A DNA stretch of 64,000 nucleotides from Candidatus Nitricoxidivorans perseverans (GTDB lineage: Bacteria; Pseudomonadota; Gammaproteobacteria; Burkholderiales; Rhodocyclaceae): positions 124,001 to 188,000 of the forward strand of contig CP107246.1 of assembly GCA_030246985.1 (NCBI GenBank), given 5' to 3'. Below the pieces are notes generated by a model, which did no database searches, was not told the DNA's origin, and saw only the letters and a list, made by a program, of their open reading frames with translations. How positions within the stretch are numbered: the first letter of the stretch is position 1; each line of letters starts with the position of its first letter. The translations under genes and the position numbers were made by a program. This document shows positions 16,099 through 30,571 of this stretch, piece by piece.

Positions 16099-16130
16099 TT
16101 CGGTAGCTGGCCGAAAAAAACAAACAGCAT
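16099..16130 (+). promoter_or_regulatory. pseudoknot element, copy 1
   Basis: Stem TTCGG/CCGAA (16099-16103, 16111-16115) encloses the loop TAGCTGG. After an A-rich linker, CAGC at 16125-16128 can pair with GCTG in the loop, giving an H-type pseudoknot. Confidence 0.7.
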
Positions 16131-16148
16131 TCATCCGACGATCGCGTC

Positions 16149-16280
16149 ATGCGCGACGACGAACAAAAGGGGGCCGAAGCGCCCATCCCCGTACCGCAGG
16201 GCAATGCGGCTGGGCTTGGGTGCAGCTGTAAGACCTTGCATGCGCGTTGTTTGCGCGTGTCGAGGCAGCGTACCCCGTGA
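16149..16280 (+). CDS. possible 43-residue protein
   Basis: A short open frame between the first pseudoknot and the first structured leader. The product is polar, with a Cys cluster (GCSCKTLHARCL). There is no ribosome site of note and no family resemblance. It may be chance; it is listed because it fills a 230-nt stretch otherwise without assignment. Confidence 0.25.
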   Translation: MRDDEQKGAEAPIPVPQGNAAGLGCSCKTLHARCLRVSRQRTP

Positions 16281-16373
16281 ACCTGCGTCAAAGGACTTCA
16301 ACCATCGAGATCGGCGCTCCAGAAGAGCATTGATCTCCCGCCTGCGAATGCAGGACGGTTTTTCAACCCTGCG

Positions 16374-16431
16374 GGGGCTATCACGCCCCGACAAGGGACG
16401 TGGTGCCTCCGTTTTTCATTCTGGAGGCATC
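16374..16431 (+). promoter_or_regulatory. structured leader 1 (ribosome-site sequestering)
   Basis: Hairpin GGGGC/GCCCC with loop TATCAC, then GGTGCCTCC (16402-16410) complementary to GGAGGCATC (16423-16431). The second strand is the Shine-Dalgarno sequence up to the ATG at 16432. Confidence 0.7.
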
Positions 16432-16788
16432 ATGGAAAAAGTTCTTCTTGTCATGGCACTGCTGGGTTCTGTGTATCTGGCACTGCGCGGTTTGGTCAAG
16501 GTCGGAAGGTTGCTGATGGCGTTGTTGATGCCGAAGGCAATTCCCGTCCTCCCCAGCGCAGTACGGAAGCTGGACACCACGGGGATGGCCGTGCCCAACG
16601 ACGAAGTTGAAGATTGGTCGAAGTACGAAGTTCCGGCGTTCATCCGGCGCGGCATTCCCATGCCCGTGCTGGAGCCGGCAAACGCAAAACCCACAAAACC
16701 CCGCAAGCGCAGGAGTAAGGCAAAGTCGGACGGCAAACCCGTCACGGACGTTACGCCCGAGTCTCCTTCCTTCGAGTTTGTGGCTTAA
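16432..16788 (+). CDS. small membrane-anchored basic protein
   Basis: A 118-residue protein. Residues 3-34 are hydrophobic (VLLVMALLGSVYLALRGLV and a second patch), probably one or two membrane helices. The remainder is soluble and ends in a Lys/Arg/Pro-rich tail (KPTKPRKRRSKAKSDGK). No family is recognised. The start at 16432 follows GGAGG within leader 1; the longer frame upstream covers non-coding leader. It is the first gene of the leading-region array. Confidence 0.65.
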   Translation: MEKVLLVMALLGSVYLALRGLVKVGRLLMALLMPKAIPVLPSAVRKLDTTGMAVPNDEVEDWSKYEVPAFIRRGIPMPVLEPANAKPTKPRKRRSKAKSDGKPVTDVTPESPSFEFVA

Positions 16789-16804
16789 ACAGTTTTTCAA
16801 CCCC

Positions 16805-16866
16805 GCGGGGGCTATCACGCCCCCGCAAGGGGCGTGGTGCCTCCGCATTTTCTATCTGGAGGCATC
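16805..16866 (+). promoter_or_regulatory. structured leader 2
   Basis: Perfect hairpin GCGGGGGC/GCCCCCGC (16805-16812, 16819-16826) with loop TATCAC. GGTGCCTCC (16836-16844) then pairs with GGAGGCATC (16858-16866), right up to the ATG at 16867. Confidence 0.75.
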
Positions 16867-16944
16867 ATGTCGCTCGTCATCATCGCTTGCTGTATCACTG
16901 GTTGGATCATCAGCCGTCCCGTTGTCCGGGTGCTGGGCATCTAA
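16867..16944 (+). CDS. 25-residue single-helix membrane microprotein
   Basis: Very short frame with a full leader and GGAGG site. The product is almost entirely one membrane helix followed by SRPVVRVLGI. It is clearly related to the 27-residue product at 17093-17176: both read I-I-(x)-C-x-I-(S/T)-G-(F/W)-I-I-S-R-P-(I/V)-V-(K/R). Two neighbouring paralogues with the same conserved end argue that they are real genes. Function unknown; a regulator of a membrane complex is one possibility. Confidence 0.65.
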   Translation: MSLVIIACCITGWIISRPVVRVLGI

Positions 16945-16974
16945 CCGGCAGCAGCATTAATCGCCTGTGGGAAT

Positions 16975-17022
16975 CCCCGCAGGCCTAATCGCTTTCGAGA
17001 GAGAGCCATTAGGCCTGCGGGG
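16975..17022 (+). promoter_or_regulatory. type-B leader with perfect 15-bp inverted repeat
   Basis: CCCCGCAGGCCTAAT (16975-16989) and ATTAGGCCTGCGGGG (17008-17022) form a perfect 15-bp stem with an 18-nt loop, upstream of the second microprotein gene. No T-tract follows, so it is unlikely to be a terminator. Confidence 0.7.
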
Positions 17023-17092
17023 TTGCTACGGGCGCGAATCAAGCCTGGCAATTCCTGTGGGGTTTTCAATCAACCCGACCAGGAGCCTAGCC

Positions 17093-17176
17093 ATGATATT
17101 TGCGATCATCACCATGTGCGTCATTTCAGGATTCATCATCAGTCGTCCGATCGTCAAGGCGTTCGGGTTGCGGTGA
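17093..17176 (+). CDS. 27-residue single-helix membrane microprotein, paralogue
   Basis: AGGAG at 17081-17085 lies 7 nt before the ATG. The product (MIFAIITMCVISGFIISRPI then VKAFGLR) is a membrane helix with the same SRP(I/V)V ending as the product at 16867. The following small gene starts 19 nt downstream. Confidence 0.65.
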   Translation: MIFAIITMCVISGFIISRPIVKAFGLR

Positions 17177-17195
17177 GAGCCAGGAAGCGGATGCC

Positions 17196-17354
17196 ATGAG
17201 CCTGTCGCATCTTTTTGAAAAGGTGGTCCAGGGTGACCGTAACGCATGTAACTCGATCGATGCGGACACCATGGATCAATTGATCCAATGGGCGTGCGAT
17301 CACAAAGTTCTTTGGAAACTCCGAGACGCTTTGTGCAATCTCGCGCCAGTTTAA
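17196..17354 (+). CDS. 52-residue hypothetical protein
   Basis: A short soluble product beginning MSLSHLFEKVVQGDRNACNS and ending CNLAPV, probably helical. AGGAAG at about 17182-17187 supports the start at 17196. No family is recognised. It is followed at once by a terminator, so it closes the first transcription unit. Confidence 0.5.
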   Translation: MSLSHLFEKVVQGDRNACNSIDADTMDQLIQWACDHKVLWKLRDALCNLAPV

Positions 17355-17367
17355 TGAGCATGTCAGA

Positions 17368-17425
17368 GTCCGGCGTCACGACGCTGGACTTTCCTTAATG
17401 CATTCGAGAGTGCATTAAGGAAAGT
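17368..17425 (+). terminator. terminator with overlapping downstream hairpin, copy 1
   Basis: Stem 17368-17377/17380-17389 is followed by TTTCC. A second, perfect 15-bp stem (17388-17402/17411-17425, loop TTCGAGAG) uses the end of the terminator and its T-tract as its 5' strand. The same geometry recurs four more times. Confidence 0.7.
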
Positions 17426-17460
17426 TGAAATTGTCGCTCTGGTTATTCTGGAGCTTCATG

Positions 17461-17467
17461 GCGGTAG
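17461..17467 (+). promoter_or_regulatory. pseudoknot element copy 2, left part (split by IS)
   Basis: GCGG followed by TAG is the 5' stem and half of the loop. The rest of the element lies beyond the IS1634-like insertion at 19395-19419. Confidence 0.65.
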
Positions 17468-19394
17468 CCCCGACTTTGACACCGCCAAGTAACACGCCCC
17501 ACGGAAAGCCGCATGGCGCAAAGCATTCGGCGAGACAGCCGAAATCGGTGTGTATCTAGGCGGGGAAGGCGGTCAATCCAGATTCAGGATCGGCTTCGGC
17601 GGCTTTATTTTCAATGCCTTCAATCGGTTAGCGGCATCCGGCGAAGGCTCGGTCACCTGCCAGACACGACCGTGGGGGCTGGACAATAGCGCCAACTGGA
17701 TGCGCTTCAGGTCATCCCGGATAGTGCGCCAGGTATCCTGACACGCGTGCTCGATGGTGCGCTCCAGCAAGAGCGACAGAACGGTGATGGCGATGTGGGC
17801 ATGAATGCGGTGGGGCGCCCAGTGGAACACCGGACGCATCTTCAATCCGCTCTTCATCGTCCGCCAGGCCTCTTCCACCCGCTGCTGCTGTTTGTAGCCC
17901 AGCGCCATGTCCTCGGCCGTGAGCGTGTCGTCGTTGCTATGCACCACGAACTTGCCGTCGAAACGCTCCAGTTCGGCGACCGCCTGGCGATCAATCGCCA
18001 AGCCCCGCTTCGTTTCCTTCAGCAAGCGCCCGTAGCGGGCGCTGCTGCGCAAGGCGCAGACCCGTTTCGTGTGACTCACCTTGGCCAGATCGGACAGGCT
18101 GGCCAGTTCCGCCTCCAGTTCGTTCAGCAGTTCCTCCCGATGTGCCTTCTGGCGTTTGGCTTCCAGCGGATTGAAGCAGACCGCATAGCGTCGCCGCCGC
18201 TCGCCCTCGCCGACGATGACTTCCTTCACCTCCAGATTCTCGGCGACAGTGCGATAGCGGCCCGGTCGCGATAGCACGTCCTCGGTGACCTCGTCGCCGC
18301 GGCGCATTGGCATCGCCAGCAGGTACTTGCCGCCGCCCTTGGACAAGGTCTGCAAGTTGGCCTGCGAGACCATGCCGGCATCGCCGACGAAGAGGCAGCG
18401 CGTGAGTTGCCAGCCGCGTAGGTCTTCCTTGACCCGGGCAACGGTGGTGACATCGACCGTGTTGCCGGGGAAGACCCAGTGACGCACCGGAAAGCCATCC
18501 CGGGTGACGGCCATACCGACGATGATCTGCGGCGCATCGCTGCGGCCGTTCTTGCTGTGGCCGCGCTTGCGAGGAGCGGCATAGACTTTCTTGCCGGCCG
18601 CCTGGCTGCCCTGGACGTTTCCGTTCTTGTCGCCTTCGTCTTCCTCATCGGTCTCGAAGTGCAGCGAGGTGGTGTCGTAGAAGATCACCTCGACGTCGAG
18701 ATTGAGCAGGTCGGCCACCCGGTGGAAGATGGCGTGCTCGATGGCGTTCTTGTTCGCTTCCAGGAAGTCCATGGCGCGGTACAGCTGGTGCAGTTTCAAT
18801 CCCTGCGTCCCGTCGATATGCGCGTCTTCCTTGAGCCACTGTTCATGGCAATAGAGTTTCGAGGCCGGCGCGCAGGCACGATTGGCGACCAGAGCGAACA
18901 GGGCGCGCTCGACGTCGAACCCGAGATGCCGCGGGCTGGCCTGCTGTCGCACGATGGCGTCGATGCCGAGTTGCTTCCAGATGGCTTCGAGGACGTAGAG
19001 GTCGCCGTAGGGCCAGGCGCAGATCAGGCGCCAGTCGCCATCGGCAGCGACGATCTCTTCCGGCGAGCAGCGGCGCAGGATGCTTTTGGCCAGCCTGCGC
19101 AGACGCTCGACAACGTCGGGATCGTCGGCGCGCCCGCAGTTATGCACGATGCTGGCTTGCGACCTTCCCTTGGCGGCATCCCAGACGTTCTCCGCCAGTT
19201 GCAGATAGGTCACGACGCTGCCATCCGCTCGCCGTTGTTTGCTCTCGCGTAGGTACATGGCCCGTATCGTAGCGGCCTTCCGGGGCGATAATCAACAATC
19301 CATGTATCTAGGCGTTTTGCGATTCGACGCTCGGAAACCCGCATGGTTGATGGGTGTCGGTCTGAAATGTGCCTCGAAAGTGTCAAAGTCGGGG
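17468..19394. mobile_element. IS1634-like (IS4 group) insertion sequence
   Basis: Ends are CCCCGACTTTGACAC (17468-17482) and its exact inverse at 19380-19394. TAG flanks both sides. Removing the element restores GCGG-TAGCTGG-CCGC, a normal pseudoknot stem and loop, which independently supports the boundaries. Inside, TGTATCTAGGCG occurs as a direct repeat at 17551-17562 and 19303-19314 on either side of the transposase gene. That could mean a nested arrangement. Confidence 0.8.
17573..19258 (-). CDS. IS1634-like transposase
   Basis: A 561-residue DDE transposase of IS4/IS1634 type. The N-terminus (YLRESKQRRADGSVVTYLQL and IVHNCGR) is typical. Catalytic Asp candidates are in IFYDTTSLHFE and LFVGDAGMVSQ. 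The Glu is in the Y-(2)-R-type motif YKQQQRVEEAWRTMKSGL. The frame is full length with no stop, so the copy may be active. It is oriented against the surrounding genes. Confidence 0.9.
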   Translation of the reverse strand: MYLRESKQRRADGSVVTYLQLAENVWDAAKGRSQASIVHNCGRADDPDVVERLRRLAKSILRRCSPEEIVAADGDWRLICAWPYGDLYVLEAIWKQLGIDAIVRQQASPRHLGFDVERALFALVANRACAPASKLYCHEQWLKEDAHIDGTQGLKLHQLYRAMDFLEANKNAIEHAIFHRVADLLNLDVEVIFYDTTSLHFETDEEDEGDKNGNVQGSQAAGKKVYAAPRKRGHSKNGRSDAPQIIVGMAVTRDGFPVRHWVFPGNTVDVTTVARVKEDLRGWQLTRCLFVGDAGMVSQANLQTLSKGGGKYLLAMPMRRGDEVTEDVLSRPGRYRTVAENLEVKEVIVGEGERRRRYAVCFNPLEAKRQKAHREELLNELEAELASLSDLAKVSHTKRVCALRSSARYGRLLKETKRGLAIDRQAVAELERFDGKFVVHSNDDTLTAEDMALGYKQQQRVEEAWRTMKSGLKMRPVFHWAPHRIHAHIAITVLSLLLERTIEHACQDTWRTIRDDLKRIQLALLSSPHGRVWQVTEPSPDAANRLKALKIKPPKPILNLD

Positions 19395-19420
19395 TAGCTG
19401 GCCGCTCGAAATAAGCAGCA
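19395..19420 (+). promoter_or_regulatory. pseudoknot element copy 2, right part
   Basis: TAGCTGG (of which TAG is the duplicated target), then CCGC (19402-19405), which would pair with GCGG at 17461-17464, then CAGC at 19416-19419 for the second helix. The insertion has separated it from its 5' strand. Confidence 0.65.
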
Positions 19421-19459
19421 TCCAAAGTGGTCAGAGATGGCCAATTCAGTTCCCTAACC

Positions 19460-19514
19460 GGGGCATCGCGCCCCTGCTAGGGGAGTGGTGCCCCATTACC
19501 TTGGAGGTACCACC
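19460..19514 (+). promoter_or_regulatory. structured leader 3
   Basis: Hairpin GGGGC/GCCCC (19460-19464, 19470-19474). GTGGTGCC (19485-19492) pairs with GGTACCAC (19506-19513) in front of the ATG at 19515, covering part of the GGAGG site. Confidence 0.7.
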
Positions 19515-20465
19515 ATGAAGATGGAAAACGTAGGTCTGTTGTCGATGTCTGCCGAGCAATATCACGGCAACAAGGAGGCTGTTGGACACTCAGGTCTAGT
19601 GAAGCTGATGCGTTCACCTGCGCATTATCAGGAGTACGTAGCCAATCCGCCTGAGCCAACGCCGGCCATGGCTTTCGGGACCGCGCTGCATATGGCGGTT
19701 CTGGAACCGGCTGAGTTCTCCTCGGTGTATTCAGTCTTCGATGAATCCAGGCTGGAAGGCACATTGCAATCCCTGGATGATTACAAGTCTGCGGCTGAAG
19801 CGCTGGGCATCAAGGTTGGGAAGATGAAGAAGGATGAGATCAAGGATGCCATCAAGGTAGCCGATGTCGATTCCCGTTTCGTGTTCCGTGAAGATGCGAT
19901 CGCCAGACTGTACGGCGGCAAGCAGATTCTGCAACCGACAGCAATGTTGGCCATTCAGTCGATTCAGGCCAGCATCTCCCGGCATAAGGGTGCGGCGCGT
20001 TTGCTCTCCACAGGGCTGGCGGAAATGTCAGGCTTCTGGATGGATTCAGAAACCGGGATCCCGTGCAAATGTCGCCCTGACTGGCTGGTCATGGCAGGCG
20101 AAATGACCACCGGCATCGTGGATGTGAAGTCTTGCTGCGATGCCTCGGCAGAAGGCTTTTCCCGAGTTATTGCAACGATGGGCTACGACCTGCAGGCAGC
20201 CTATTATCAGGACGGGATAAAAGCCCTGACGGGCCGTACGCTTCCGTTCCATTTCATTGCTGTCGAGAAGGACGCCCCGTTTGCAACGGCGGTCTACAAG
20301 GCAAGTGACGAAATGATCGAGGTCGGCCGTGCGAAGTATCGCGGCGCACTTCAGCTGCTGAAGTGGTGTCGAGAAAACAACCAATGGCCGGCTTACCAAC
20401 CGAGCGGTGTGATCGAAGAGATCGATCTGCCGCGCTGGGCAGCCAACTTCAATCTGGATGACTAG
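19515..20465 (+). CDS. RecE-like PD-(D/E)XK exonuclease (DUF3799 type)
   Basis: A 316-residue nuclease of the RecE/lambda-exonuclease superfamily. Visible core: PAMAFGTALHMAVLEP (helix and motif I), CKCRPDWLV (Asp), GIVDVKSCCDAS (Asp-X-Lys) and YDLQAAYYQDG (the Q/Y motif). It should degrade one strand of double-stranded DNA so that the RecT protein encoded 350 nt downstream can load. Start chosen after GGAGG and leader 3. ICE and phage relatives are of similar size. Confidence 0.82.
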   Translation: MKMENVGLLSMSAEQYHGNKEAVGHSGLVKLMRSPAHYQEYVANPPEPTPAMAFGTALHMAVLEPAEFSSVYSVFDESRLEGTLQSLDDYKSAAEALGIKVGKMKKDEIKDAIKVADVDSRFVFREDAIARLYGGKQILQPTAMLAIQSIQASISRHKGAARLLSTGLAEMSGFWMDSETGIPCKCRPDWLVMAGEMTTGIVDVKSCCDASAEGFSRVIATMGYDLQAAYYQDGIKALTGRTLPFHFIAVEKDAPFATAVYKASDEMIEVGRAKYRGALQLLKWCRENNQWPAYQPSGVIEEIDLPRWAANFNLDD

Positions 20466-20466
20466 C

Positions 20467-20727
20467 ATGTTGTCCAATCCGGTTGAGGCGCTTGCGGACT
20501 ACCTCCATGAGGTTGGCCAGCCAATCCTTGATCTGGCAGCCAAGACAAGACGGAAGGCCGAAGCCCTTAGACAGTCAGAAGCCGAAGTCGCTCGTTGTCG
20601 CCGCGAATTGAAGCAAAGTCGTCGGCTGCTCATGGCCTGCGTCAAGCGTAACTATGTCATTTCGGAAATCGAGACGGCGGATGTTATGTGCAACAGAAAC
20701 AACGGCAGCCCGTACTGGGCACCGTAA
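20467..20727 (+). CDS. hypothetical coiled-coil protein
   Basis: An 86-residue product. Residues about 20-60 are a probable coiled coil (KTRRKAEALRQSEAEVARC). It lies between the nuclease and RecT genes. An ATG at 20458 overlaps the nuclease stop and would add three residues. No clear ribosome site is seen, so translation may be coupled. Function unknown. Confidence 0.5.
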   Translation: MLSNPVEALADYLHEVGQPILDLAAKTRRKAEALRQSEAEVARCRRELKQSRRLLMACVKRNYVISEIETADVMCNRNNGSPYWAP

Positions 20728-20749
20728 TAATCAGTAGTTCTCAACCCTC

Positions 20750-20818
20750 GGCGGGCCGCCATGCTCCCGCCAGGGACATGGTGCTCGCCTTTTACTTTCA
20801 TGAAGGAGATCCACCATG
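20750..20818 (+). promoter_or_regulatory. structured leader 4 (start-codon sequestering)
   Basis: Hairpin GGCGGG/CCCGCC (20750-20755, 20766-20771). CATGGTG (20777-20783) is complementary to CACCATG (20812-20818), which includes the start codon. The Shine-Dalgarno AAGGAG lies in the loop. Confidence 0.7.
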
Positions 20819-21919
20819 TCATTGCAAGCACTCAAGAACATCAATCGCAACGCTGCGGCAGACGCAAACGAGCAGCCCAAGAACTTCCCGGCCATGCTGG
20901 AGCAGTTCAAGGGGGAAATCGCCCGAGCCCTGCCCAAGCACATCAACCCGGATCGCATGGCGCGGATTGCGCTGACGGCGTTCCGTATGACGCCGAAGCT
21001 TGGCGAGTGCGACCCCCGCAGTGTTTTTGCGGCAGTCATACAGTCCTCGCAGATGGGTCTGGAGGTCGGGCTGATGGGAGAGGCGCACCTGGTGCCATTC
21101 GGTAACCAGTGTCAGCTGATTCCCGGTTACACCGGACTCATGAAGCTGGCACGTCAATCGGGATTGGTTCAGGACATCTATGCCCATGAGGTTCGTGTGA
21201 ATGACCAGTTCACCTTGAAACTCGGCATGGAGCGCAGCTTGGATCACGACCCGATGACAGGGTTTGGCGGTTTCCCGGCATCCGATGAAGAGCGCGGCGA
21301 CGTGGCAGGCTTTTATGCTGTCGCTGTGTTCAAGGACGGTAGCAGGACGTTCGTGGCGATGGGGCGCAAGGAAGTCGAGAAGATCCGCGATAACTCGCGG
21401 GGCTATCAGGCAGCCAAGCGCTACAAGAAAGAGTCCGTCTGGGACTCGGACTTTACGGCGATGGGACTCAAGACGGCGATTCGTCGGCTCTGCAAGTTCC
21501 TGCCGAAATCTCCCGAACTGGCGGCTGCGCTTGCACTCGATGCAGCATCCGAGCAGGGTAAGGAACAGAACCTGAATCTGAACGATGTTATCGAGGGCAA
21601 TTACGCCCCGGTGGTCGATGAGGAAACGGGCGAAATTACCGAACCCGACGTTGCGCAAGCCACCCAAGCCAAGGTTGCCGAAAAGCCGGCTGAGCCCGCC
21701 AAAGCCAAGACCGCGCCCGCTGCCAAAGCGGATGCCGCCAAGGCCGAGGATGCGCCCAACCCGAAGCTGAAGGTGATCTTCGATCAGATGGCCGCCGCAA
21801 AGACCAATGAGGCGCTGGATGAGATCTACATCCGCGCCGAAGGTGAGCTTGACGGTACCGAACTGGAGGCACTGATGCGCGAATACCGCAAGTGCAAGAG
21901 CCAGGACGGCCTGTTCTGA
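20816..21919 (+). CDS. recT: RecT-family single-strand annealing protein
   Basis: A 367-residue recombinase. Residues about 20-250 have the RecT core (MARIALTAFRMTPKLGECDP, QSSQMGLEVGLMGEAHLVPF, LIPGYTGLMKLARQSG, and WDSDFTAMGLKTAIRRLCKF). An Ala/Lys-rich linker (about 285-320) and a short C-terminal domain follow. It anneals complementary single strands together with the RecE-like nuclease and SSB encoded nearby, a module that can recircularise or repair incoming DNA. A strong terminator follows. Confidence 0.92.
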   Translation: MSLQALKNINRNAAADANEQPKNFPAMLEQFKGEIARALPKHINPDRMARIALTAFRMTPKLGECDPRSVFAAVIQSSQMGLEVGLMGEAHLVPFGNQCQLIPGYTGLMKLARQSGLVQDIYAHEVRVNDQFTLKLGMERSLDHDPMTGFGGFPASDEERGDVAGFYAVAVFKDGSRTFVAMGRKEVEKIRDNSRGYQAAKRYKKESVWDSDFTAMGLKTAIRRLCKFLPKSPELAAALALDAASEQGKEQNLNLNDVIEGNYAPVVDEETGEITEPDVAQATQAKVAEKPAEPAKAKTAPAAKADAAKAEDAPNPKLKVIFDQMAAAKTNEALDEIYIRAEGELDGTELEALMREYRKCKSQDGLF

Positions 21920-21931
21920 TTCAACAACGAA

Positions 21932-21994
21932 CCCTACGCGCTTCGGCGCGTGGGTTTTCCCAGGGGTGTTCCATGAGTGCCCCTCGGCAAACCC
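21932..21994 (+). terminator. terminator with overlapping downstream hairpin, copy 2
   Basis: ACGCGC/GCGCGT with a TTCG loop, then GGG and TTTT. Downstream, GGGTTT (21952-21957) can pair with AAACCC (21989-21994), with an inner AGGGG/CCCCT helix. This re-uses the terminator end and T-tract. Confidence 0.75.
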
Positions 21995-22027
21995 AGATTC
22001 TTCCTCCCGGCTATCCGGAAGGCTGAT

Positions 22028-22058
22028 AGTCGTAGCTGGCGACTCAAATCAAACAGCA
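22028..22058 (+). promoter_or_regulatory. pseudoknot element, copy 3
   Basis: Stem AGTCG/CGACT (22028-22032, 22040-22044), loop TAGCTGG, linker CAAATCAAA, and CAGC at 22054-22057 for the second helix. Confidence 0.75.
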
Positions 22059-22096
22059 TTCAAGATCACTCGCTGGAAACAGCAGGTGCAAAACAA

Positions 22097-22210
22097 CCCT
22101 GCCGGGGAGGCTCTTCCCGACAGGGAATCTCCTTTGCGCTGGGTCATTCCCAACGTCCCACCCAGGGCCTGCCATAGCGTCTAGCCCGCTGGGCGTTACG
22201 GCAGGCCCTG
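22097..22210 (+). promoter_or_regulatory. type-B leader with two hairpins
   Basis: CCCTGCCGGG/CCCGACAGGG (22097-22106, 22116-22125; one mismatch), then CAGGGCCTGCC/GGCAGGCCCTG (22163-22173, 22200-22210; perfect). A related pair precedes the primase-like gene at 25417. Confidence 0.7.
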
Positions 22211-22247
22211 TTTGGGGTTGTCGCTTCAAATCGCAAAGGAGATCAAC

Positions 22248-22499
22248 ATGAAAATCATCGATGCAATTCCTGTGTCGAATTCACTTCACAAAGTGAATCT
22301 CGTTGAAAACGCTGGCCAGTTTTCCATCGTTCGTCAGGCCGTCAACAGGCCTGCAGTCGTAGTTCTGAAAAACATGACGCGTGAAGCGGCCAAGTCCTTT
22401 TGGTGGCGCATGTGCATGTCTCACTTCTACGGCGCTACGCACAATCTCCACGATGCGGAGAGGATGGCGGATCGTCGTGTTGATGAAACCATTCACTGA
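22248..22499 (+). CDS. hypothetical protein, 83 residues
   Basis: A small soluble protein starting MKIIDAIPVSNSLHKVNLVE, probably alpha/beta. AAGGAG lies 7 nt before the ATG. No family is recognised. It is followed 12 nt later by the TSCPD-like gene, so the two form one unit. Confidence 0.6.
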   Translation: MKIIDAIPVSNSLHKVNLVENAGQFSIVRQAVNRPAVVVLKNMTREAAKSFWWRMCMSHFYGATHNLHDAERMADRRVDETIH

Positions 22500-22511
22500 T
22501 TGGAGGCGGCA

Positions 22512-23477: not shown

Positions 23478-23507
23478 GACGTGGCCTGGCGGCAATCATG
23501 CATCTCC

Positions 23508-23562
23508 CCCTCCCCAAGCGGGGAGGGTTTTCCAGAACGCTGCGAAATCAGCGTTGCGGAAA
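23508..23562 (+). terminator. terminator with overlapping downstream hairpin, copy 3
   Basis: CCCTCCCC/GGGGAGGG (23508-23515, 23520-23527), loop AAGC, then TTTT. TTTCCAGAACGCTG (23529-23542) pairs with CAGCGTTGCGGAAA (23549-23562). Confidence 0.75.
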
Positions 23563-23578
23563 GCTAAATTGTTCCCCC

Positions 23579-23629
23579 TGGCTACGCCATGAGGACATGA
23601 AGGTAGCTGGCCTTCTCAAACAATCAGCA
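23579..23629 (+). promoter_or_regulatory. mini-hairpin and pseudoknot element, copy 4
   Basis: TGGC-TAC-GCCA (23579-23589), then stem GAAGG/CCTTC (23599-23603, 23611-23615) around TAGCTGG, and CAGC at 23625-23628. Nearly identical to copy 5. Confidence 0.75.
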
Positions 23630-23672
23630 TACACCGTGAGTGGAATTCCACTCACTTTCAAACTCCCGCTGT

Positions 23673-23734: not shown

Positions 23735-24583
23735 ATGTTTTACGAGAAAAAAGTTGATCTTCGTAGCCGACGGAAAATGACAGACTTTTTGGTTAATCAT
23801 TTTCGGTACTCCACGATGAACTCGTGGAATCTATCCAAAAGCTACGCCAACAAAATCAAGATTAGCACCCTTGGTCTGACCCATGAACAAGCGTCAGAAG
23901 CGTTCGATGTTCTATCCGCTGATGGTTGGTGGGACGAGATTAGTTTCCCAATCGATGAATTTACCGCTGAGTGTAGTGGTGAATTTACCATTGGGTCGAA
24001 TGGCCGCTCCGGCGGCTATCTCGTCCTTTACAGGTCAGCGCATGAAAGTACCGGGCATAAGTCATGGTGCCGAACATGCGGGCAACGCAATTTCGCGAAG
24101 GTCTTCACTATTCCAGCTGGCAATGAGGGAATTGTCGCCGCAGAAGTACTGCGGACTAATTGCACGTTCCGGGCAGAAGTCTATCTTGAGCAACCTTCGA
24201 TCCAAGATCTGAAGTTTCCTGAAGTCCAGAAGACTGCGCTGGTTCGGAAATATCTAGCCGAACTCAAAAGCCAAAACTACACGCTTGGCAACAAGTGCGG
24301 GAAGTGCGGTGCGTATGGAGACAAGGGACGTGTGAATTATGAGCACGAACCGAGGATCCTGCGTGTCATGAGCGGCGGAATGGATGAAGACAAAGATTAC
24401 GAGGAATGGTCAATTGGACAGCTTCGTGATCGAGTCGAGCTGGTTTGCCGCTTCGACAGGGCATGCGATGCTATCCGCGATAACTTCATCGATCTAATCG
24501 ACAACTGCAAGGTCGTCGAAGAAGTTGTGATGGTGCCAAGGAATGTGAAGCGGCTTGTTTGCGCAGTTGGAGCAGCAGTATGA
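23735..24583 (+). CDS. hypothetical protein with two Cys-pair zinc-ribbon-like sites
   Basis: A 282-residue protein of unknown function. CRTCGQRN (about residue 110) and CGKCGAYGDKG (about residue 189) are CXXC knuckles that could form one zinc ribbon. The rest shows no catalytic motif. GGAGG precedes the ATG within leader 5. Codon use looks less GC-biased than its neighbours (an impression, not counted), which would fit recent acquisition. Confidence 0.6.
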   Translation: MFYEKKVDLRSRRKMTDFLVNHFRYSTMNSWNLSKSYANKIKISTLGLTHEQASEAFDVLSADGWWDEISFPIDEFTAECSGEFTIGSNGRSGGYLVLYRSAHESTGHKSWCRTCGQRNFAKVFTIPAGNEGIVAAEVLRTNCTFRAEVYLEQPSIQDLKFPEVQKTALVRKYLAELKSQNYTLGNKCGKCGAYGDKGRVNYEHEPRILRVMSGGMDEDKDYEEWSIGQLRDRVELVCRFDRACDAIRDNFIDLIDNCKVVEEVVMVPRNVKRLVCAVGAAV

Positions 24584-24744
24584 GATGCCTTCATGCTGAA
24601 TTCGTTGGCGGCAGGATGTCCCATGTGATTTCTGCCATGTCAAGAATCCGCGAAACGTGTAATGCAGATATTCACGCTCTGTGGCTTACGGTTATGCAAA
24701 AAATTCTCGCTATGACTGTCATGGCAGGACGTTCAGGGTCTTAA
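24580..24744 (+). CDS. possible 54-residue downstream protein
   Basis: The ATG overlaps the stop of the previous gene (ATGA), as in coupled gene pairs. The product begins MRCLHAEFVGGRMSHVISAM and is Met-rich, with no family resemblance. It could be chance. Confidence 0.35.
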   Translation: MRCLHAEFVGGRMSHVISAMSRIRETCNADIHALWLTVMQKILAMTVMAGRSGS

Positions 24745-24767
24745 CCTGAAATTGATTTTCAACCCTC

Positions 24768-24838
24768 GGCGGGACGCCATGCTCCCGTCAGGGACATGGT
24801 GCTCGCCTTTTTATCTTTCATGAAGGAGATTCACCATG
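24768..24838 (+). promoter_or_regulatory. structured leader 6 (start-codon sequestering)
   Basis: Hairpin GGCGGG/CCCGTC (24768-24773, 24784-24789; C to T change gives a G-U pair compared with leader 4). CATGGTG (24795-24801) pairs with CACCATG (24832-24838), which contains the ssb start codon. Confidence 0.7.
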
Positions 24839-25243
24839 CTTAACAAGGTTCAACTGATCGGTTTCCTCGGAGCTGATCCGGATGTGCGTTTCACCCAGGA
24901 GCAGGAAGCGATCGCACGCGTGCGCATCGCCACCAGTGAGACCTGGAAAAAGGACGGCAAGCGCCAGGAGAGGACAGAGTGGCATAACGTCGTGTTCTTC
25001 GGCAAGCTGGCTGAAATCGTCGGCAACCACCTCAAGAAAGGATCCCTGGTGTACGTCGAAGGTCGTTTGCAGACGCGCTCTTGGGATAAAGAAGGCGAAA
25101 CCCGCTATTCGACCGAGATCGTCGCGGAGAGCATGAAGATGCTACCCAATGGCAGCGGCAAGTCGAAAGATGATCCTGCCAGCGAGGAATCGCCTGCAAG
25201 AGGCAAAAAGCCGCCGGCCAAGCATGACGACGGTCCTTTCTAG
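24836..25243 (+). CDS. ssb: single-stranded DNA-binding protein
   Basis: A 135-residue OB-fold SSB. Family sequences: MLNKVQLIGFLGADPDVRFT, ERTEWHNVVFFGKLAEIV, and KKGSLVYVEGRLQTRSWDK. The tail ends KHDDGPF, a variant of the acidic tip (DDDIPF) that recruits partner proteins. It probably coats incoming conjugative single strands and works with RecT. It sits behind leader 6, the near twin of the recT leader, which suggests the two are regulated alike. Confidence 0.93.
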   Translation: MLNKVQLIGFLGADPDVRFTQEQEAIARVRIATSETWKKDGKRQERTEWHNVVFFGKLAEIVGNHLKKGSLVYVEGRLQTRSWDKEGETRYSTEIVAESMKMLPNGSGKSKDDPASEESPARGKKPPAKHDDGPF

Positions 25244-25280
25244 CCTGCGTTAGTCGCGCGCACATCAGCAACACACAAAG

Positions 25281-25390
25281 TCCCTGCCGGGGAGAGCATC
25301 CCGGCAGGGATGTCTCCATGCCGGTGGGAATTTCATCGGCCCGCGACGGGGCCTACCAAAGCGCCTCGTTTGGGGTGCTTTGGCAGGCCC
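25281..25390 (+). promoter_or_regulatory. type-B leader with two hairpins
   Basis: TCCCTGCCGGG/CCCGGCAGGGA (25281-25291, 25300-25310; perfect 11 bp), then GGGCCTACCAAAGC/GCTTTGGCAGGCCC (25349-25362, 25377-25390; one mismatch). Organised like 22097-22210. Confidence 0.7.
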
Positions 25391-25416
25391 GGTCCGGGTA
25401 ACACATGGAGGCAATC

Positions 25417-26511
25417 ATGGAAATAGAGGAAGTGAAAATCGCGGCACAAGGCATGTGGGACTCGATTCTTCGGTCTCTGGCGCCTCAGCTGAGAGCAGCT
25501 CTCGAGCGTCCGGGGCATCACGTACCTTGTCCGGTTCATGGTGGCAAGGATGGATACCGGACGTTTCCGGACGTTGCGGAAACAGGGGGTGGCGTCTGTA
25601 ATACATGTGGAGTACATGCAGATGGCTTTGCTACGCTGATGTGGGTTGCCGGCATGAACTTCAAGGAAGCACTCGGCGAGGTTGTGGGCTACTTGCAGCT
25701 TGGCACAACCCGGCCGTTACCAGCACGGGTCGTGAAGCGCGAGAAGACGTCGGATGAAAGGGAAGACGAGAAACTTCGTCAGTCTCTGAATCGGGTCTGG
25801 AATGAATCCATCCAGATCTGCGAGCGTGATGCAGAGCCAGCCAGGCTGTATCTGGCGCGGCGCGGCATTGCACTCAGTCCGCCAGAAGCACTTCGATTCC
25901 ATCCTTCACTGCCGTACTACGAGGGGAAAGAGAAGTGTGGTGAGTATCCAGCCATGATTTCAATGGTGTCTGGTACTCAGGGGAACGCAGTGACTATCCA
26001 CCGCATCTATCTGACCCAGGATGGCATCAAGGCACCTGTCAAGTCGCCAAAGAAGCTCATGGCATATCCCGGTTATCGACAGATCATAGGTGGTGCCATA
26101 CGGTTGTCACCGGCAAGCGGGAAGTCATCCACCTTGCTGGTTGCTGAAGGCGTCGAAACATCCCTGGCTGTCATTGAGGGAACGAAGGGATCCAATTTCC
26201 CTGTCTGGAGCACAGTCAATGCGCTTCTGATGGAGAACTTGATTCCTCCCGACTGGGCAACCCGAGTCATCATCTTCGGCGACAAAGATCGTCCTACCGA
26301 GCAACACCCCAAGGGACATGGACAGGAAGCGGCAAAGAAGCTTGTCCAGCGTCTCTGGCAACGAGGTATCCAGGCATCGGCAATTATCCCGGCAGGAGAA
26401 ATCTCGCCTGGCGAAAAGTCGCTGGACTGGCTCGACATCCTTAAAACCAAAGGCAGCGCAGGTTTTCCGGTCATGAATATGATCGAGCGTGCCATGCGGA
26501 ATGCAGCGTAG
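25417..26511 (+). CDS. Toprim and zinc-finger primase-like protein
   Basis: A 364-residue protein related to the primase-helicase/Toprim proteins of phages and mobile elements. The N-terminal zinc site is CPVHGGKDGYRTF plus CNTCG (about residues 33-65). The Toprim core has LLVAEGVETSLAV (Glu) and VIIFGDKDRP (DXD) at about residues 238 and 280. It probably makes primers on single strands. No helicase motif is present. GGAGG lies at 25407-25411, so ATG 25417 is favoured over 25405, which overlaps that site. Confidence 0.82.
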   Translation: MEIEEVKIAAQGMWDSILRSLAPQLRAALERPGHHVPCPVHGGKDGYRTFPDVAETGGGVCNTCGVHADGFATLMWVAGMNFKEALGEVVGYLQLGTTRPLPARVVKREKTSDEREDEKLRQSLNRVWNESIQICERDAEPARLYLARRGIALSPPEALRFHPSLPYYEGKEKCGEYPAMISMVSGTQGNAVTIHRIYLTQDGIKAPVKSPKKLMAYPGYRQIIGGAIRLSPASGKSSTLLVAEGVETSLAVIEGTKGSNFPVWSTVNALLMENLIPPDWATRVIIFGDKDRPTEQHPKGHGQEAAKKLVQRLWQRGIQASAIIPAGEISPGEKSLDWLDILKTKGSAGFPVMNMIERAMRNAA

Positions 26512-26533
26512 GGAGTCGATATGTAGCAACATC

Positions 26534-26589
26534 CCCAGCGCTTCGGCGCTGGGCTTTCCCGAGAGCGCTGGACAGCGCTTTCAGGAAAG
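26534..26589 (+). terminator. terminator with overlapping downstream hairpin, copy 4
   Basis: CCCAGCGC/GCGCTGGG (26534-26541, 26546-26553) with a TTCG loop, then CTTT. The segment from 26554-26570 pairs with 26573-26589 (CTTTCC with GGAAAG at the base, AGCGCTG with CAGCGCT at the top). Confidence 0.75.
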
Positions 26590-26604
26590 CTGAATTGTTC
26601 CCCC

Positions 26605-26656
26605 TGGCTACGCCATGAGGACATGAAGGTAGCTGGCCTTCCCAAACAATCAGCAT
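26605..26656 (+). promoter_or_regulatory. mini-hairpin and pseudoknot element, copy 5
   Basis: TGGC-TAC-GCCA (26605-26615), stem GAAGG/CCTTC (26625-26629, 26637-26641) around TAGCTGG, and CAGC at 26651-26654. Confidence 0.75.
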
Positions 26657-26703
26657 CAGATCGCAGCACGCAACATCGCTGCCTAAAAGAAGTTCTCAAC
26701 CCT

Positions 26704-26764
26704 GCGGGGGCTATCACGCCCCCGCAAGGGGCGTGGTGCCTCCGCATTATCTTAGGAGCGCAAT
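26704..26764 (+). promoter_or_regulatory. structured leader 7
   Basis: Hairpin GCGGGGGC/GCCCCCGC identical to leader 2, then GGTGCCTCC. Here the ribosome site is AGGAGCG, so only CTCC/GGAG can pair. This is the weakest anti-ribosome-site helix of the set. Confidence 0.55.
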
Positions 26765-27484
26765 ATGCCTAACTGGTGCGAAAACCGCCTTTCGGTCTCA
26801 GGCCCGAAAGAAACTATCGCCAAGATCATCGTGGCGACCAAAGTAGATCAAGGTGAATTCGACTTCAACGGTATCGTCCCGATGCCGCCAGAGTTGAACA
26901 TCACCGCTGGGTCATCCACAAGCTGGGGCGAGGACATCCTTTACGGAGACTGGGCCAGGATGTTGGGCCTTCCAGTGTGGCGCGATCTTTTCCTTGAACT
27001 GACTGGCGGTCTACTGCCGGAAACGCGCGAGGAGATGGTTCGCCTTATCGAGTATGAGCATCGCCTCTACCAGCTTAGCAACCGGTTGTCGTGGTCGTTC
27101 AATCTCAATGAAGCGCGTCAGGCGAAAGCCAATCGGGAGAAATATGGGTTCAAGGATTGGTACGACTGGTCGGTTGCCAACTGGGGAACCAAGTGGAACG
27201 GCGGGCAAGTTGATGTCGAATCGATGGAATCCGAAAGCTTTACGATCTACTTCAGTACCGCCTGGAGCCCTCCGGTGCCTGTCATCGATTCATTGTGCGA
27301 ACAGTACTCCGATATCGAGGTCGAACTGTCCTACGCCGAAACTGGCTGCTGGTTTGCCGGCAAGGTATATGGCAGCGATGGCGTGATAACAGATAGCCCT
27401 TTTGATGATGTGAAACAGTTTTGCATCGATGAGTTCGGTCACGAATTCGACGATGACGAAGCTGAAGAGGAGGTCGAAGCATGA
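26765..27484 (+). CDS. YubB/Api92-like ferredoxin-fold protein (DUF1281 type)
   Basis: A 239-residue protein starting MPNWCENRLSVSGPKETIAK, the hallmark beginning of the DUF1281/YubB family common on plasmids and integrative elements. Tryptophan-rich segments (WYDWSVANWGTKWNG, FSTAWSPPVPVIDSL) belong to the same fold. The C-terminus is acidic (DDDEAEEEVEA). The molecular role of the family is not established. The stop overlaps the next gene by 4 nt. Confidence 0.75.
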   Translation: MPNWCENRLSVSGPKETIAKIIVATKVDQGEFDFNGIVPMPPELNITAGSSTSWGEDILYGDWARMLGLPVWRDLFLELTGGLLPETREEMVRLIEYEHRLYQLSNRLSWSFNLNEARQAKANREKYGFKDWYDWSVANWGTKWNGGQVDVESMESESFTIYFSTAWSPPVPVIDSLCEQYSDIEVELSYAETGCWFAGKVYGSDGVITDSPFDDVKQFCIDEFGHEFDDDEAEEEVEA

Positions 27485-28011
27485 CTTCCTTGATGATCAC
27501 CACCGGAATGCTGGCTTCAATTGTTTCCGAAATACTCACCAACCCCTTCTCGGGGGAGGTCGAGGAGCAGGAAACATTTGAGCGGTTCTTCACCGATGTC
27601 GCCCAGATTGTTTGTGATTACTGCGGCGGAGAGGTGACCACTCCGGCTGGCTACATCCCGGAAGCAGACAGCATGGACTGGGCAACGCATTACCGACTGG
27701 AAGTTCAGCTCAATGGGTCGTCTCCTCAAGGTGGCGGTTTGTGGGCGAAAGTAGCGGCATCAGTCACTGAAAAAACTGCGGTGCCCACTCGGACGCTGCT
27801 CAATGAGACCACCCAAGTGGTGGTATTTGCGAGCGAAGGAGTGACACGTTCCGTTGCTGTTCGGGATATTCCTGAAGGTGGAGTGCCGTGTGTCGTGGTG
27901 GACTACGACGACATGCGAGAGCATCCCCATCAAGATGTAGGCGACTTTGAGCGCGAACGGATTGGTTGTACGCGTGATGAGTTCGATCTGGCAGCAAGCT
28001 ACATTTGGTAG
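27481..28011 (+). CDS. hypothetical protein, 176 residues
   Basis: Translationally coupled (ATGA) to the YubB-like gene. A possible metal knuckle CDYCGGEV is at about residue 41, with no partner pair seen. The remainder is mixed alpha/beta without known motifs. Function unknown. Confidence 0.6.
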   Translation: MTSLMITTGMLASIVSEILTNPFSGEVEEQETFERFFTDVAQIVCDYCGGEVTTPAGYIPEADSMDWATHYRLEVQLNGSSPQGGGLWAKVAASVTEKTAVPTRTLLNETTQVVVFASEGVTRSVAVRDIPEGGVPCVVVDYDDMREHPHQDVGDFERERIGCTRDEFDLAASYIW

Positions 28012-28040
28012 CTCATTAAGCATTTCTAAACCTACCCGCT

Positions 28041-28098
28041 CGGGAGCTCTACTCCCGGCAGGGATGGTGCCTCCGGCGGATCTTCTTCGGAGGTCTCT
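28041..28098 (+). promoter_or_regulatory. structured leader 8
   Basis: Hairpin CGGGAG/CTCCCG (28041-28046, 28052-28057). CCTCCG (28070-28075) pairs with CGGAGG (28088-28093), the ribosome site of the ardC-like gene. Confidence 0.7.
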
Positions 28099-28923
28099 AT
28101 GTCATCAAAAGACAAACCAGATTGGCAGAGTCTGCTCAAACAGGCACTGACAGTTCCCGGCACGCTTTCAAAGGCGTACTCGGTGTTTCACAACTACTCG
28201 CTGGGCAATCAGCTTCTGGCTTCCTTTGAACTTGCCAGTCGCGGCTTGCCTCTGTCCCCCATCGCGTCATTCATGCGTTGGAAGGAACTGGGGCGTAGCG
28301 TCAAGAAGGGCGAAAAGGCAATTCCCTTGGTGATGCCAGTAACCGTTAAGAAGAAGGCATTAGATGCCGATGCCGGCGAAGAGTCGGTAGATGGTGTCCG
28401 CACTATCTTCATCCTGAAGCGCAACTGGTTCTCACTCGACCAAACTGAGGGTGAAGCATTCAGTCCCGAAGTGATCATGCCCGAGTGGGACAAGGCGAAA
28501 GCCCTTGTCGCATTGGACATCAGGGAGGTTCGCTTTGAGATGGCTGACGGAAATTGCCAGGGCTATGCCAAGCTGGGTGTCCGCGAGGTTGCCGTCAATC
28601 CGGTAGCGGCAATGCCATGGAAAACACTGTTCCATGAAATTGCTCATCATCTGCTCGGTCATACGGCCACCGGTGATGCGACTGGCACGATGGCCGATGG
28701 CCCCTCGATGCCGAAATGCATCAAGGAAGCCGAAGCCGAAGCTACCGCGTATCTGTGCTGCGCGACCCTCGGGTTGTCAGGCATGGAGGAAAGCCGTGGC
28801 TACATTCAGAGCTGGCTGGACGGAGAGGAATTTCCGGAAAAGTCATCGCGACGGGTGTTTGCCGCTGCGGACAAGATCCTGAAGGCCGGAACTATCGGGC
28901 TGCAGGGGAAGGAGGCCAGATGA
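28099..28923 (+). CDS. ArdC-like antirestriction protein with zincin domain
   Basis: A 274-residue protein. Residues about 1-110 match the ArdC N-terminal ssDNA-binding domain (YSLGNQLLASFELASRG, FMRWKELGRSVKKGEKAIPL, IFILKRNWFSLDQTEG). The C-terminal domain has the metallopeptidase motif HEIAHHLLGH and a downstream EAEAEATAYL helix. ArdC-type proteins protect incoming single-stranded plasmid DNA from type I restriction and bind ssDNA. It overlaps the next gene by 4 nt. Confidence 0.85.
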   Translation: MSSKDKPDWQSLLKQALTVPGTLSKAYSVFHNYSLGNQLLASFELASRGLPLSPIASFMRWKELGRSVKKGEKAIPLVMPVTVKKKALDADAGEESVDGVRTIFILKRNWFSLDQTEGEAFSPEVIMPEWDKAKALVALDIREVRFEMADGNCQGYAKLGVREVAVNPVAAMPWKTLFHEIAHHLLGHTATGDATGTMADGPSMPKCIKEAEAEATAYLCCATLGLSGMEESRGYIQSWLDGEEFPEKSSRRVFAAADKILKAGTIGLQGKEAR

Positions 28924-29138
28924 TCGACAGAACTTATCAAGCAGTAGCAACAGTCCATGATCCACTTACCGACAAGGGCATGAACGAAGAACCTGTTCAT
29001 GATCGCGTCAATCTGGATCGCATCAAAGCCCTGAAGCTGGCGAAGCTTTGGTCAGAACAAGGGTACTGGAGCTCGATTTACAACCAACTGACAGCGGAGT
29101 GTGTCGAGTGCTATGCCCCCCAAACGGGGGTGAGCTAA
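28920..29138 (+). CDS. hypothetical protein, 72 residues
   Basis: The ATG overlaps the stop of the antirestriction gene and follows a GGAGG site. The product is acidic at first, then helical (RIKALKLAKLWSEQGYWSSI). Its last codons lie over a CCCCC/GGGGG hairpin. No family is recognised. Confidence 0.55.
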   Translation: MIDRTYQAVATVHDPLTDKGMNEEPVHDRVNLDRIKALKLAKLWSEQGYWSSIYNQLTAECVECYAPQTGVS

Positions 29139-29173
29139 ACCACATACTGAAGTCAGCAAATCATTTCCCACAC

Positions 29174-29235
29174 GGGGCGTTCACGGCCCCATGTGGGCCA
29201 TGGTGCCCCGCCTTTCCAAGAGGAGTTGCACCATG
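29174..29235 (+). promoter_or_regulatory. structured leader 9 (start-codon sequestering)
   Basis: Hairpin GGGGC/GCCCC (29174-29178, 29186-29190). CATGGTGC (29199-29206) is a perfect 8-bp complement of GCACCATG (29228-29235), which includes the start codon; the ribosome site AGGAG is in the loop. Confidence 0.75.
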
Positions 29236-30183
29236 TCACAAATAAAGCAGCAATTGGAGTCTGGCAAGCTGATACACGTTGGCCAGCGGATTCATTGCAT
29301 TCTCAATGGCGGTACCGATGGCGTTGTCACTGCCATTCATGGCGTACAAGATCCGGGATCGTGTCAAACGATCGCAAGTGGGATCGGAGTGACAGGCGGG
29401 GGTGCCCATCTCGATATTGTCTGGGATGACGGTACTGAATCTCGCGGCATTCCGGAAAGCCTGGCCAGAACTTCTGTGCAGTGGAAGATCTATGCGGAAG
29501 TGGCCTCGATGTCGGAGGTAGTCGAACTCAAGGCGAATCTTGCCATTGAGAAGGCGCGCCGCCAGGCAGAAGAGGATGCCAGGCAGGTTACCTTCAACAA
29601 GGAGTGCGATCGGCTTCGTCAGACTTATCCGCAATTAATAAAGCGCGAGACCGAGTCCAGTGATTTCAAGCGCTGCCTTGTGAATGTCCGCATCATCCTG
29701 AAGGAGTTGTTCTCAGGAATCAAGTTCAGCGTTCGTCAGGATTCGTTTGGCTCGCTGACCGTGCGATGGACTGATGGCCCGACTGAAATGCAGGTCGGCA
29801 GCCTGGTGAATGGCTTCAAAGGTGGCAGCTTTGACGGGATGGAGGATATTTACCGTCATGAGCGCACGCCATGGAACACTCTTTTTGGTGAAGCGAAGTA
29901 TCTCTCGCTCCATCGAACAGAGTCTGAAGCGATCGTTCAGAAGGCAATCGACACCCTGTGGGATGTTCTGCCCAACGTGCGAGAGCTCGTAAAGCCGACT
30001 CCAGCATCGGTCTTCTCTGTCAGGTCCGAGCGGGTGCCTGGCCTTGAAGTCAATGTAGCCGAGCTAATTCGCACTCTGTGTTCTCACTACGATGCAATTC
30101 AGAAGCGATTTGAGCGAAACGGTACAAAGTACGGTCGCTTGACCTTCGTGGTTGATTACGCGTGTAAAGCGCAAGGCAAGTAA
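29233..30183 (+). CDS. LPD29-like domain protein
   Basis: A 316-residue protein. The middle (about residues 155-215) reads LFSGIKFSVRQDSFGSLTVR, WTDGPTEMQV and GGSFDGMEDI, which resembles LPD29, a domain of large polyvalent proteins in phages and conjugative elements. The N-terminus has an SH3-like strand pattern (HCILNGGTDGVVTAIHG) and the centre a short coiled coil. Function unknown; such proteins are thought to be injected with or act on incoming DNA. Start after AGGAG in leader 9. Confidence 0.6.
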   Translation: MSQIKQQLESGKLIHVGQRIHCILNGGTDGVVTAIHGVQDPGSCQTIASGIGVTGGGAHLDIVWDDGTESRGIPESLARTSVQWKIYAEVASMSEVVELKANLAIEKARRQAEEDARQVTFNKECDRLRQTYPQLIKRETESSDFKRCLVNVRIILKELFSGIKFSVRQDSFGSLTVRWTDGPTEMQVGSLVNGFKGGSFDGMEDIYRHERTPWNTLFGEAKYLSLHRTESEAIVQKAIDTLWDVLPNVRELVKPTPASVFSVRSERVPGLEVNVAELIRTLCSHYDAIQKRFERNGTKYGRLTFVVDYACKAQGK

Positions 30184-30197
30184 CAGCAATCCCTTAC

Positions 30198-30253
30198 CGG
30201 GGGGCATCTCCCCCGATAGGGGGCGAGCCTCCCTTGTCTTCATGGAGGTACTG
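30198..30253 (+). promoter_or_regulatory. structured leader 10
   Basis: Hairpin CGGGGG/CCCCCG (30198-30203, 30210-30215). CCTCC (30228-30232) pairs with the GGAGG ribosome site (30244-30248). Confidence 0.65.
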
Positions 30254-30406
30254 ATGCGTGCATGTCAAATGTTGTTTGGAACAAGGGAGAGAGACGGGCT
30301 GGCCTATATCGAGCCTTTGCCGTCTTTTCATCCGCTGTACAAGATCCGTAAGAAGATTGTTGCGATCGGCAGCTATATCGGTCGCATCTTTCGCTTGGGC
30401 GAGTGA
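30254..30406 (+). CDS. hypothetical protein, 50 residues
   Basis: Small basic product beginning MRACQMLFGTRERDGLAYIE and ending GRIFRLGE. It has a full leader and GGAGG, so it is probably real. The in-frame ATG at 30242 overlaps the ribosome site and is rejected. A terminator follows. Function unknown. Confidence 0.55.
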   Translation: MRACQMLFGTRERDGLAYIEPLPSFHPLYKIRKKIVAIGSYIGRIFRLGE

Positions 30407-30438
30407 AGGAATGCATTCGACCATTGCATGACAGGAAT

Positions 30439-30502
30439 CCCGTGCCCTCGTGGCACGGGGTTTTCCTGAACCGTCTGGAAACAAACAGGCCGTTCAGGAA
30501 AA
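30439..30502 (+). terminator. terminator with overlapping downstream hairpin, copy 5
   Basis: CCCGTGCC/GGCACGGG (30439-30446, 30452-30459), then TTTT. The T-tract begins a 17-nt strand (30461-30477) that pairs with 30486-30502 with one mismatch and one G-U. Confidence 0.78.
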
Positions 30503-30517
30503 TCGGAATTCAGTCGC

Positions 30518-30571
30518 CCGGCTACGCCAGGTGATCGATGCTCCCAGCTGGGGAGTCAAAACAAACAGCAA
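30518..30571 (+). promoter_or_regulatory. mini-hairpin and pseudoknot element, copy 6
   Basis: GGC-TAC-GCC near 30522, then stem CTCC/GGAG (30541-30544, 30552-30555) around the loop CAGCTGG, and CAGC at 30566-30569. Both stem strands differ from the other copies, yet pairing is kept. Confidence 0.72.

Follow-up and report, generated by a model that had tools for sequence, protein, structure and literature searches.

Several known systems are close to the one considered here. In phage HK022, the cis-acting put RNA binds the beta' zinc-binding domain of RNA polymerase, which then reads through terminators. The RNA measures about 70 nt and has two stem structures, and putL comes directly after an early promoter (PMC9378689). 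Two conjugative elements, Tn916 (canT) and pLS20 (conAn), have an operon with internal terminators that begins with an antiterminator (PMC11658703, PMC8955417). STAXI RNAs, which are simple pseudoknots, occur close to ssb, antirestriction and integrase genes (PMC2864571). Here we describe a repeated pseudoknot, called the motif below, in the recombination operon of a mobile element; the window analysed comprises 64,000 nt of contig CP107246.1 (positions 124,001-188,000; GCA_030246985.1) and holds six copies. By analogy with put, the motif may be a cis-acting nascent RNA that would make RNA polymerase terminator-resistant and be reloaded after each terminator, a reading to which we give a probability of about 0.5.

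A pseudoknot with covarying stems

All six copies of the original prediction, with their stems, are present on the plus strand at the predicted coordinates (Table 1). The stem, S1, reads TTCGG/CCGAA in copy 1, AGTCG/CGACT in copy 3, GAAGG/CCTTC in copies 4 and 5, and CTCC/GGAG in copy 6, which also has the single loop variant, CAGCTGG; in copy 2, GCGG/CCGC is split, again as predicted, and the interruption is an insertion sequence. The core runs in the order S1 (4-5 bp, variable), TA, GCTG, G, S1', about nine A-rich bases, CAGC and A; its spacing is constant, with 14 bases between TAGCTGG and CAGC and 21 nt from the start of the loop to CAGC. The linker had been called A-rich; more specifically, it reads AAWYAAN, with the consensus AAAYAAN before CAGC. 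The heptamer TAGCTGG was rejected as evidence on its own, since it is not specific (11 occurrences in the window; 4.2 expected). A covariance model of the core, built on 33 cores from many elements, matched exactly the six copies in the window, with E-values from 5e-10 to 3.4e-6.

A pattern scan of species genomes yielded at least 118 matching stretches; most matches have a stem of 4-5 bp, and a minority are stemless, as expected of chance matches. Pairing in the stem reaches 90.8% over 50 diverse sequences, double changes occur at all five pairs, and the covariation score is 0.456, compared with 0.119 in shuffled sequences and at most 0.12 with the partners slid. The original view that structure and loop are kept while the stem sequence is free is supported. 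In stems with a single non-Watson-Crick pair among the four inner ones, this pair is G.T eight times and A.C twice, and the sense strand is therefore taken to be the structured one. The third stem pair is a G-C with the G on the 5' side in none of 131 copies, a bias that hints at a tertiary contact. The invariance of the loop and of CAGC is partly a product of the search pattern, which fixed both, so that the helix between them cannot be judged on the main sequence set; in six relaxed variants touching this helix, pairing is kept in four (one double compensatory change, in L109, and three by way of G.U) and broken in two, and shuffled sequence gave no such variants.

A hairpin directly upstream of the knot, P1, was missed in the original prediction; it is conserved and covarying. 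Its score is at least 8 in 66% of 76 non-redundant copies (13% of shuffles) and at least 10 in 42% (2.4% of shuffles), and 74 distinct 5' arms occur. At 23560-23630 and 26586-26656 of the window, predicted folds also contain an alternative in which the A-rich strand and CAGC pair upstream instead (GCTAAATTGTT/GCTGAATTGTT), excluding the pseudoknot.

The insertion sequence in copy 2 is about 1.93 kb long with 15-bp inverted repeats, CCCCGACTTTGACAC/GTGTCAAAGTCGGGG, and an uninterrupted version of the copy exists in relatives (L069, L105). Its open reading frame (ORF) encodes a transposase of 561 amino acids, presumably resembling the IS1634 type, and copy 2 constitutes a natural mutant of one copy.

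Distribution, leader copies and internal copies

Absence of the motif from related elements, which according to the original prediction would have argued against function, was not observed: arrays occur in SXT-like, IncC and Rhodocyclaceae elements. On an IncC plasmid all five copies lie inside the operon with ssb, bet and exo. One IncC copy used as query matched 868 PLSDB plasmids, 844 of them conjugative, at 4,780 places, and an annotated feature lay under the match in 0 of 30 among the PLSDB matches listed; an IncC leader copy is present in 91 of 5,426 complete E. coli genomes. IncC plasmids and the SXT/R391 integrative and conjugative elements (ICEs) rank with the most thoroughly studied carriers of resistance genes, but this RNA, in multiple copies on those plasmids, has no Rfam entry. 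In the family of the window, 22 of 200 genomes have the motif, most with several copies; it was found in none of 368 other genomes drawn from the class. A widespread chromosomal element was rejected on these counts and on the mostly clustered occurrence of the copies. A phage origin was likewise rejected: 23 pattern matches turned up in IMG/VR, and they are regarded as chance matches because those examined have no stem.

The copies fall into two positional classes: leader copies stand directly past activator-type promoters, and internal copies come after a terminator-like hairpin located at a nearly constant distance, about -80. Terminators were scored with a strict test (stem of at least 6 bp, UUU tail), with shuffled sequences and randomly chosen positions of the same loci as controls. 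An activator-like box near -90 accompanies 33 of the 70 copies without a strict terminator and 1 of the 61 with it (47% vs 1.6%); for a -10-like hexamer near -50 the values are 50% and 13%. Copy 1 of the window is a leader copy, its P1 beginning 12 bases past a -10-like TACAAT. The leader position corresponds to the s063/s089 region of SXT. A large recombination operon begins there with s089, Ps089 and Pvcrx087 drive bet/exo, and the binding of SetCD and AcaCD, which control this operon in SXT and IncC, is strongest at its promoter (PMC4344509, PMC4542580). In the single-copy leaders of several relatives, a terminator whose stem sequence varies separates the pseudoknot from the next gene.

Two identical leader-type copies are located elsewhere in the same genome, upstream of an Integrase_1-like gene (PF12835), at C1:3255-3280 and C1:2687994-2688019 (minus strand; L001 and L008). 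The mobile segment in which they sit is at least 3 kb long, appears to be duplicated and may be an island borrowing the same activator. Long leaders upstream of integrase-like genes (L026, L039, L086, L116, L001, L064) share a conserved AGAGACGGGAAGCGATAGA-like stretch past the knot, after the leader terminator where one is present.

Copies 2-6 of the window are internal, and each shows the order terminator-like hairpin, P0, P1, pseudoknot. Five terminators consisting of a GC hairpin and UUUCC lie in gaps of the window operon, and a copy follows each. Over all loci, a strict terminator is found upstream of 61 of 131 copies, ending mostly 73-89 bases before the loop, compared with about 3% in shuffles and about 3% at random places; some copies failing the test still have terminators that it overlooked. 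A second, published-style terminator score is positive in 63 of 131 copies and in 4% of controls. The hairpin P0 (UUUCC...GGAAA), which precedes P1, is formed by the U-tract of the terminator plus the bases that follow; its score is at least 6 in 36% of copies and in 8% of shuffled sequences. Predicted folds of four window copies have z values of -3.1 to -6.0.

The original prediction spoke of an element of RNA or single-stranded DNA. RNA is favoured, and more precisely nascent RNA, because leader copies are located where activator-driven transcripts begin and internal copies come after hairpins that resemble terminators. A structure in single-stranded DNA, either on the transfer strand or in a replication intermediate, had at one time been proposed for STAXI; here it would suit an operon that encodes SSB, a nuclease, RecT and antirestriction proteins, and the sense-strand fold would form in such DNA too; the RNA-like placement relative to promoters and terminators, the UUCG loops in P1 of the IncC copies and an orientation of copies that follows the genes make it very improbable.

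Candidate functions of the motif

If the motif acts in antitermination, transcription from the activator-driven promoter of the recombination operon would produce the leader copy first. This RNA would fold, hairpin P1 first and then the H-type pseudoknot with its A-rich last loop, and would bind a shared proteobacterial partner, most likely elongating RNA polymerase; a partner shared by many proteobacteria is expected because the loop and the A-rich strand are conserved. Polymerase bound in this way would turn resistant to intrinsic terminators. The operon would consist of modules of pseudoknot, genes and terminator: each terminator would halt unmodified polymerase arriving from stray promoters, and the copy just past it would re-arm a polymerase that got through. 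More tentatively, and at somewhat less than even odds, the motif can be regarded as an undescribed class of RNA-only processive antiterminator common to SXT/R391-like ICEs, IncC plasmids and betaproteobacterial ICEs, loaded at an activator-driven promoter, reloaded after every internal terminator and closing a long operon to stray transcription. If so, it would be an RNA-based antiterminator native to Gram-negative conjugative elements, and would explain how a long operon for recombination and anti-defence is kept closed and then expressed whole.

Among the observations that favour antitermination are the terminators between single leader knots and their gene, and a strong terminator (13 pairs, U5) in the IncC recombination operon, which fills most of a 61-base gap and has no pseudoknot directly after it. 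The idea that terminators are confined to the motif operon was rejected: on IncC they occur in 7 of 19 gaps of that operon and in 7 of 48 elsewhere, a difference that is only suggestive.

Several points weigh on the other side. Many internal terminators have short U-tracts (UUUCC), a U-tract is absent from some internal hairpins, and the same Us pair in P0, so that the U-tracts may be conserved for P0 and not for termination. Repeats are not demanded by the analogy with put, since the range of put is 10 kb or more (PMC9378689). A scan of HK022 (26-40 kb) with the core model gave a best score of 8 bits (E-value 1) and no sequence likeness to put. Finally, the tight coupling of terminator and pseudoknot also fits a processing cassette, in which the hairpin would guard the upstream 3' end, the messenger would be cut in or near P0, and P1 and the pseudoknot would guard the new 5' end, leader copies guarding the primary 5' end. 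Such a segmentation and stability cassette is a serious rival, if an unlikely one, given short U-tracts whose bases are paired in P0 as well; it covers both copy classes with a single function and suits the strict order of hairpin, P0, P1 and pseudoknot at near-fixed spacing. It leaves unexplained the invariant loop and A-rich strand, the strong terminators elsewhere in the same operon, and those between single leader copies and their gene, the last two of which antitermination would accommodate.

Control of the translation or attenuation of the next gene by a protein- or ligand-binding RNA, for example a site for an element-encoded regulator, was also considered. Copies lie upstream of start codons, with intervening hairpins able to mask the Shine-Dalgarno sequence, and a translational attenuator has been reported before bet in SXT (PMC4542580). 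Attenuator-like hairpins, however, also precede genes without a pseudoknot, the genes that follow copies are diverse, and an element-encoded partner would need to be shared among SXT-like, IncC and Rhodocyclaceae elements; we consider this function quite unlikely. In the window a GC-rich leader hairpin (AACCC..GGGGC..GTGGTGCC) is repeated before many ORFs (16360-16415, 16794-16849, 20738-20793, 24756-24811 and 26693-26748), with parts able to pair with the Shine-Dalgarno sequence (GGTGCCTCC/GGAGGCATC); these hairpins are likely translational attenuators of the SXT bet kind.

The genes of the operon are listed in Table 1. An flhDC-like pair lies beside a TraI_2 (MobH-type) relaxase gene about 100 kb from the operon in the same genome, perhaps within the same element. 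A UvrD-like helicase gene (12173-15280, minus strand) seems interrupted by an ORF on the plus strand (13015-14307), which we take to resemble an ISL3-type transposase.

Table 1 Features of the motif operon in the window. Positions are those of the window; E, E-value of the core covariance model; score, terminator score.
Feature	Position	Strand	Details
AcaB-like divergent gene	15288-15938	-	PF08900, 25.9 bits, just below the cut-off of 27
Putative leader promoter	16008-16061	+	Activator-like box GCACACCAAAACGCACTG at 16008-16025, proposed from likeness to boxes of other leader copies; -10-like TACAAT at 16056-16061; between the divergent AcaB-like gene and the operon
Leader copy 1	16074-16128	+	P1 16074-16095; S1 16099-16103/16111-16115; loop 16104-16110; CAGC 16125-16128; E 1.7e-9
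Terminator-like hairpin in leader	16341-16363	+	CCTGCGAATGCAGG ACGGTTTTTC; between copy 1 and the first gene; weak, U-tract 4 bases past the stem
Copy 2, left part	17368-17467	+	Terminator hairpin 17368-17389; P0 ~17389-17424; P1 17436-17454; S1 5' strand and loop start 17461-17467
Insertion sequence splitting copy 2	17468-19394		Transposase ORF 17573-19258 on the minus strand
Copy 2, right part	19395-19419	+	TAGCTGG CCGC ... CAGC; E 3.4e-6
Nuclease and RecT genes	19515-21919	+	PD-(D/E)XK nuclease (DUF3799) 19515-20465; RecT 20816-21919
Copy 3	21933-22057	+	Terminator hairpin 21933-21954; P0 21952-21994; P1 ~21999-22026; pseudoknot 22028-22057; E 5e-10; score 25.8
Copy 4	23508-23628	+	Terminator hairpin 23508-23527; P0 23529-23562; P1 ~23573-23596; pseudoknot 23599-23628; E 1.4e-9; score 38.8
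SSB and primase-like genes	24836-26511	+	SSB 24836-25243; primase-like zinc-ribbon/Toprim protein 25417-26511
Copy 5	26534-26654	+	Terminator hairpin 26534-26553; P0 26555-26588; P1 ~26599-26622; pseudoknot 26625-26654; E 1.1e-8; score 6.8
Antirestriction, RadC and methyltransferase genes	28099-34572	+	ArdC-like antirestriction protein 28099-28923; DUF4942 methyltransferase-like protein 30671-32389; RadC 32461-33054; cytosine methyltransferase 33163-34572
Copy 6	30437-30569	+	Terminator hairpin 30437-30461; P0 30460-30503; P1 30510-30538; pseudoknot 30541-30569, loop CAGCTGG; E 2.7e-8; score 30.1

Comparison with known RNA families and systems

The motif is filed as a new RNA family because it has no sequence match to put, belongs to no Rfam family and is not STAXI; it probably works like a known kind. 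No description of this RNA was found in the literature searched, which left out most subscription papers and supplements. Of Rfam 15, no family reached its gathering score over the copies, a check that had been proposed for STAXI and DUF3577 and that covers DUF3577 and radC only to the extent that Rfam contains them; sbcD scores weakly (27.2 and 23.7 bits; cut-off 40) on other hairpins, the GC-rich leader hairpins.

The suggested likeness to STAXI did not hold. The RF01728 model has no match at E-values up to 10 in the window, and hence none at the copies, and its weak matches in six genomes lie away from motif copies. The window operon does have a STAXI-like gene neighbourhood (SSB, ArdC, RecT and RadC), that of STAXI comprising genes for SSB, topoisomerase, antirestriction and integrase. 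The STAXI consensus (CCAAUG...CUGAGAGG tandem repeats, as seen on a true E. coli match), however, has neither loop nor linker in common with the motif; its stem layout is different, and its units stand in tandem, two or three within about 150 nt, whereas the window copies are 1.6 to 3.9 kb from one another.

Luteoviral frameshift pseudoknots and the preQ1-I riboswitch are likewise small H-type pseudoknots with a short first loop and an A-rich last loop. Unlike these, the motif is non-coding and is placed after promoters or terminators.

With Tn916 canT and pLS20 conAn the locus shares predicted intrinsic terminators within the operon and a candidate element at its start. Both of these are Gram-positive systems with a single site, close to where the operon begins; conAn additionally requires a protein, and canT was studied as a 452-bp fragment. 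With HK022 put, to which homology was rejected for lack of a sequence match, the leader copies share an RNA with two stem structures just past a promoter, here a predicted one. Unlike put, they have a predicted pseudoknot as their second unit, and copies recur after terminators within one operon.

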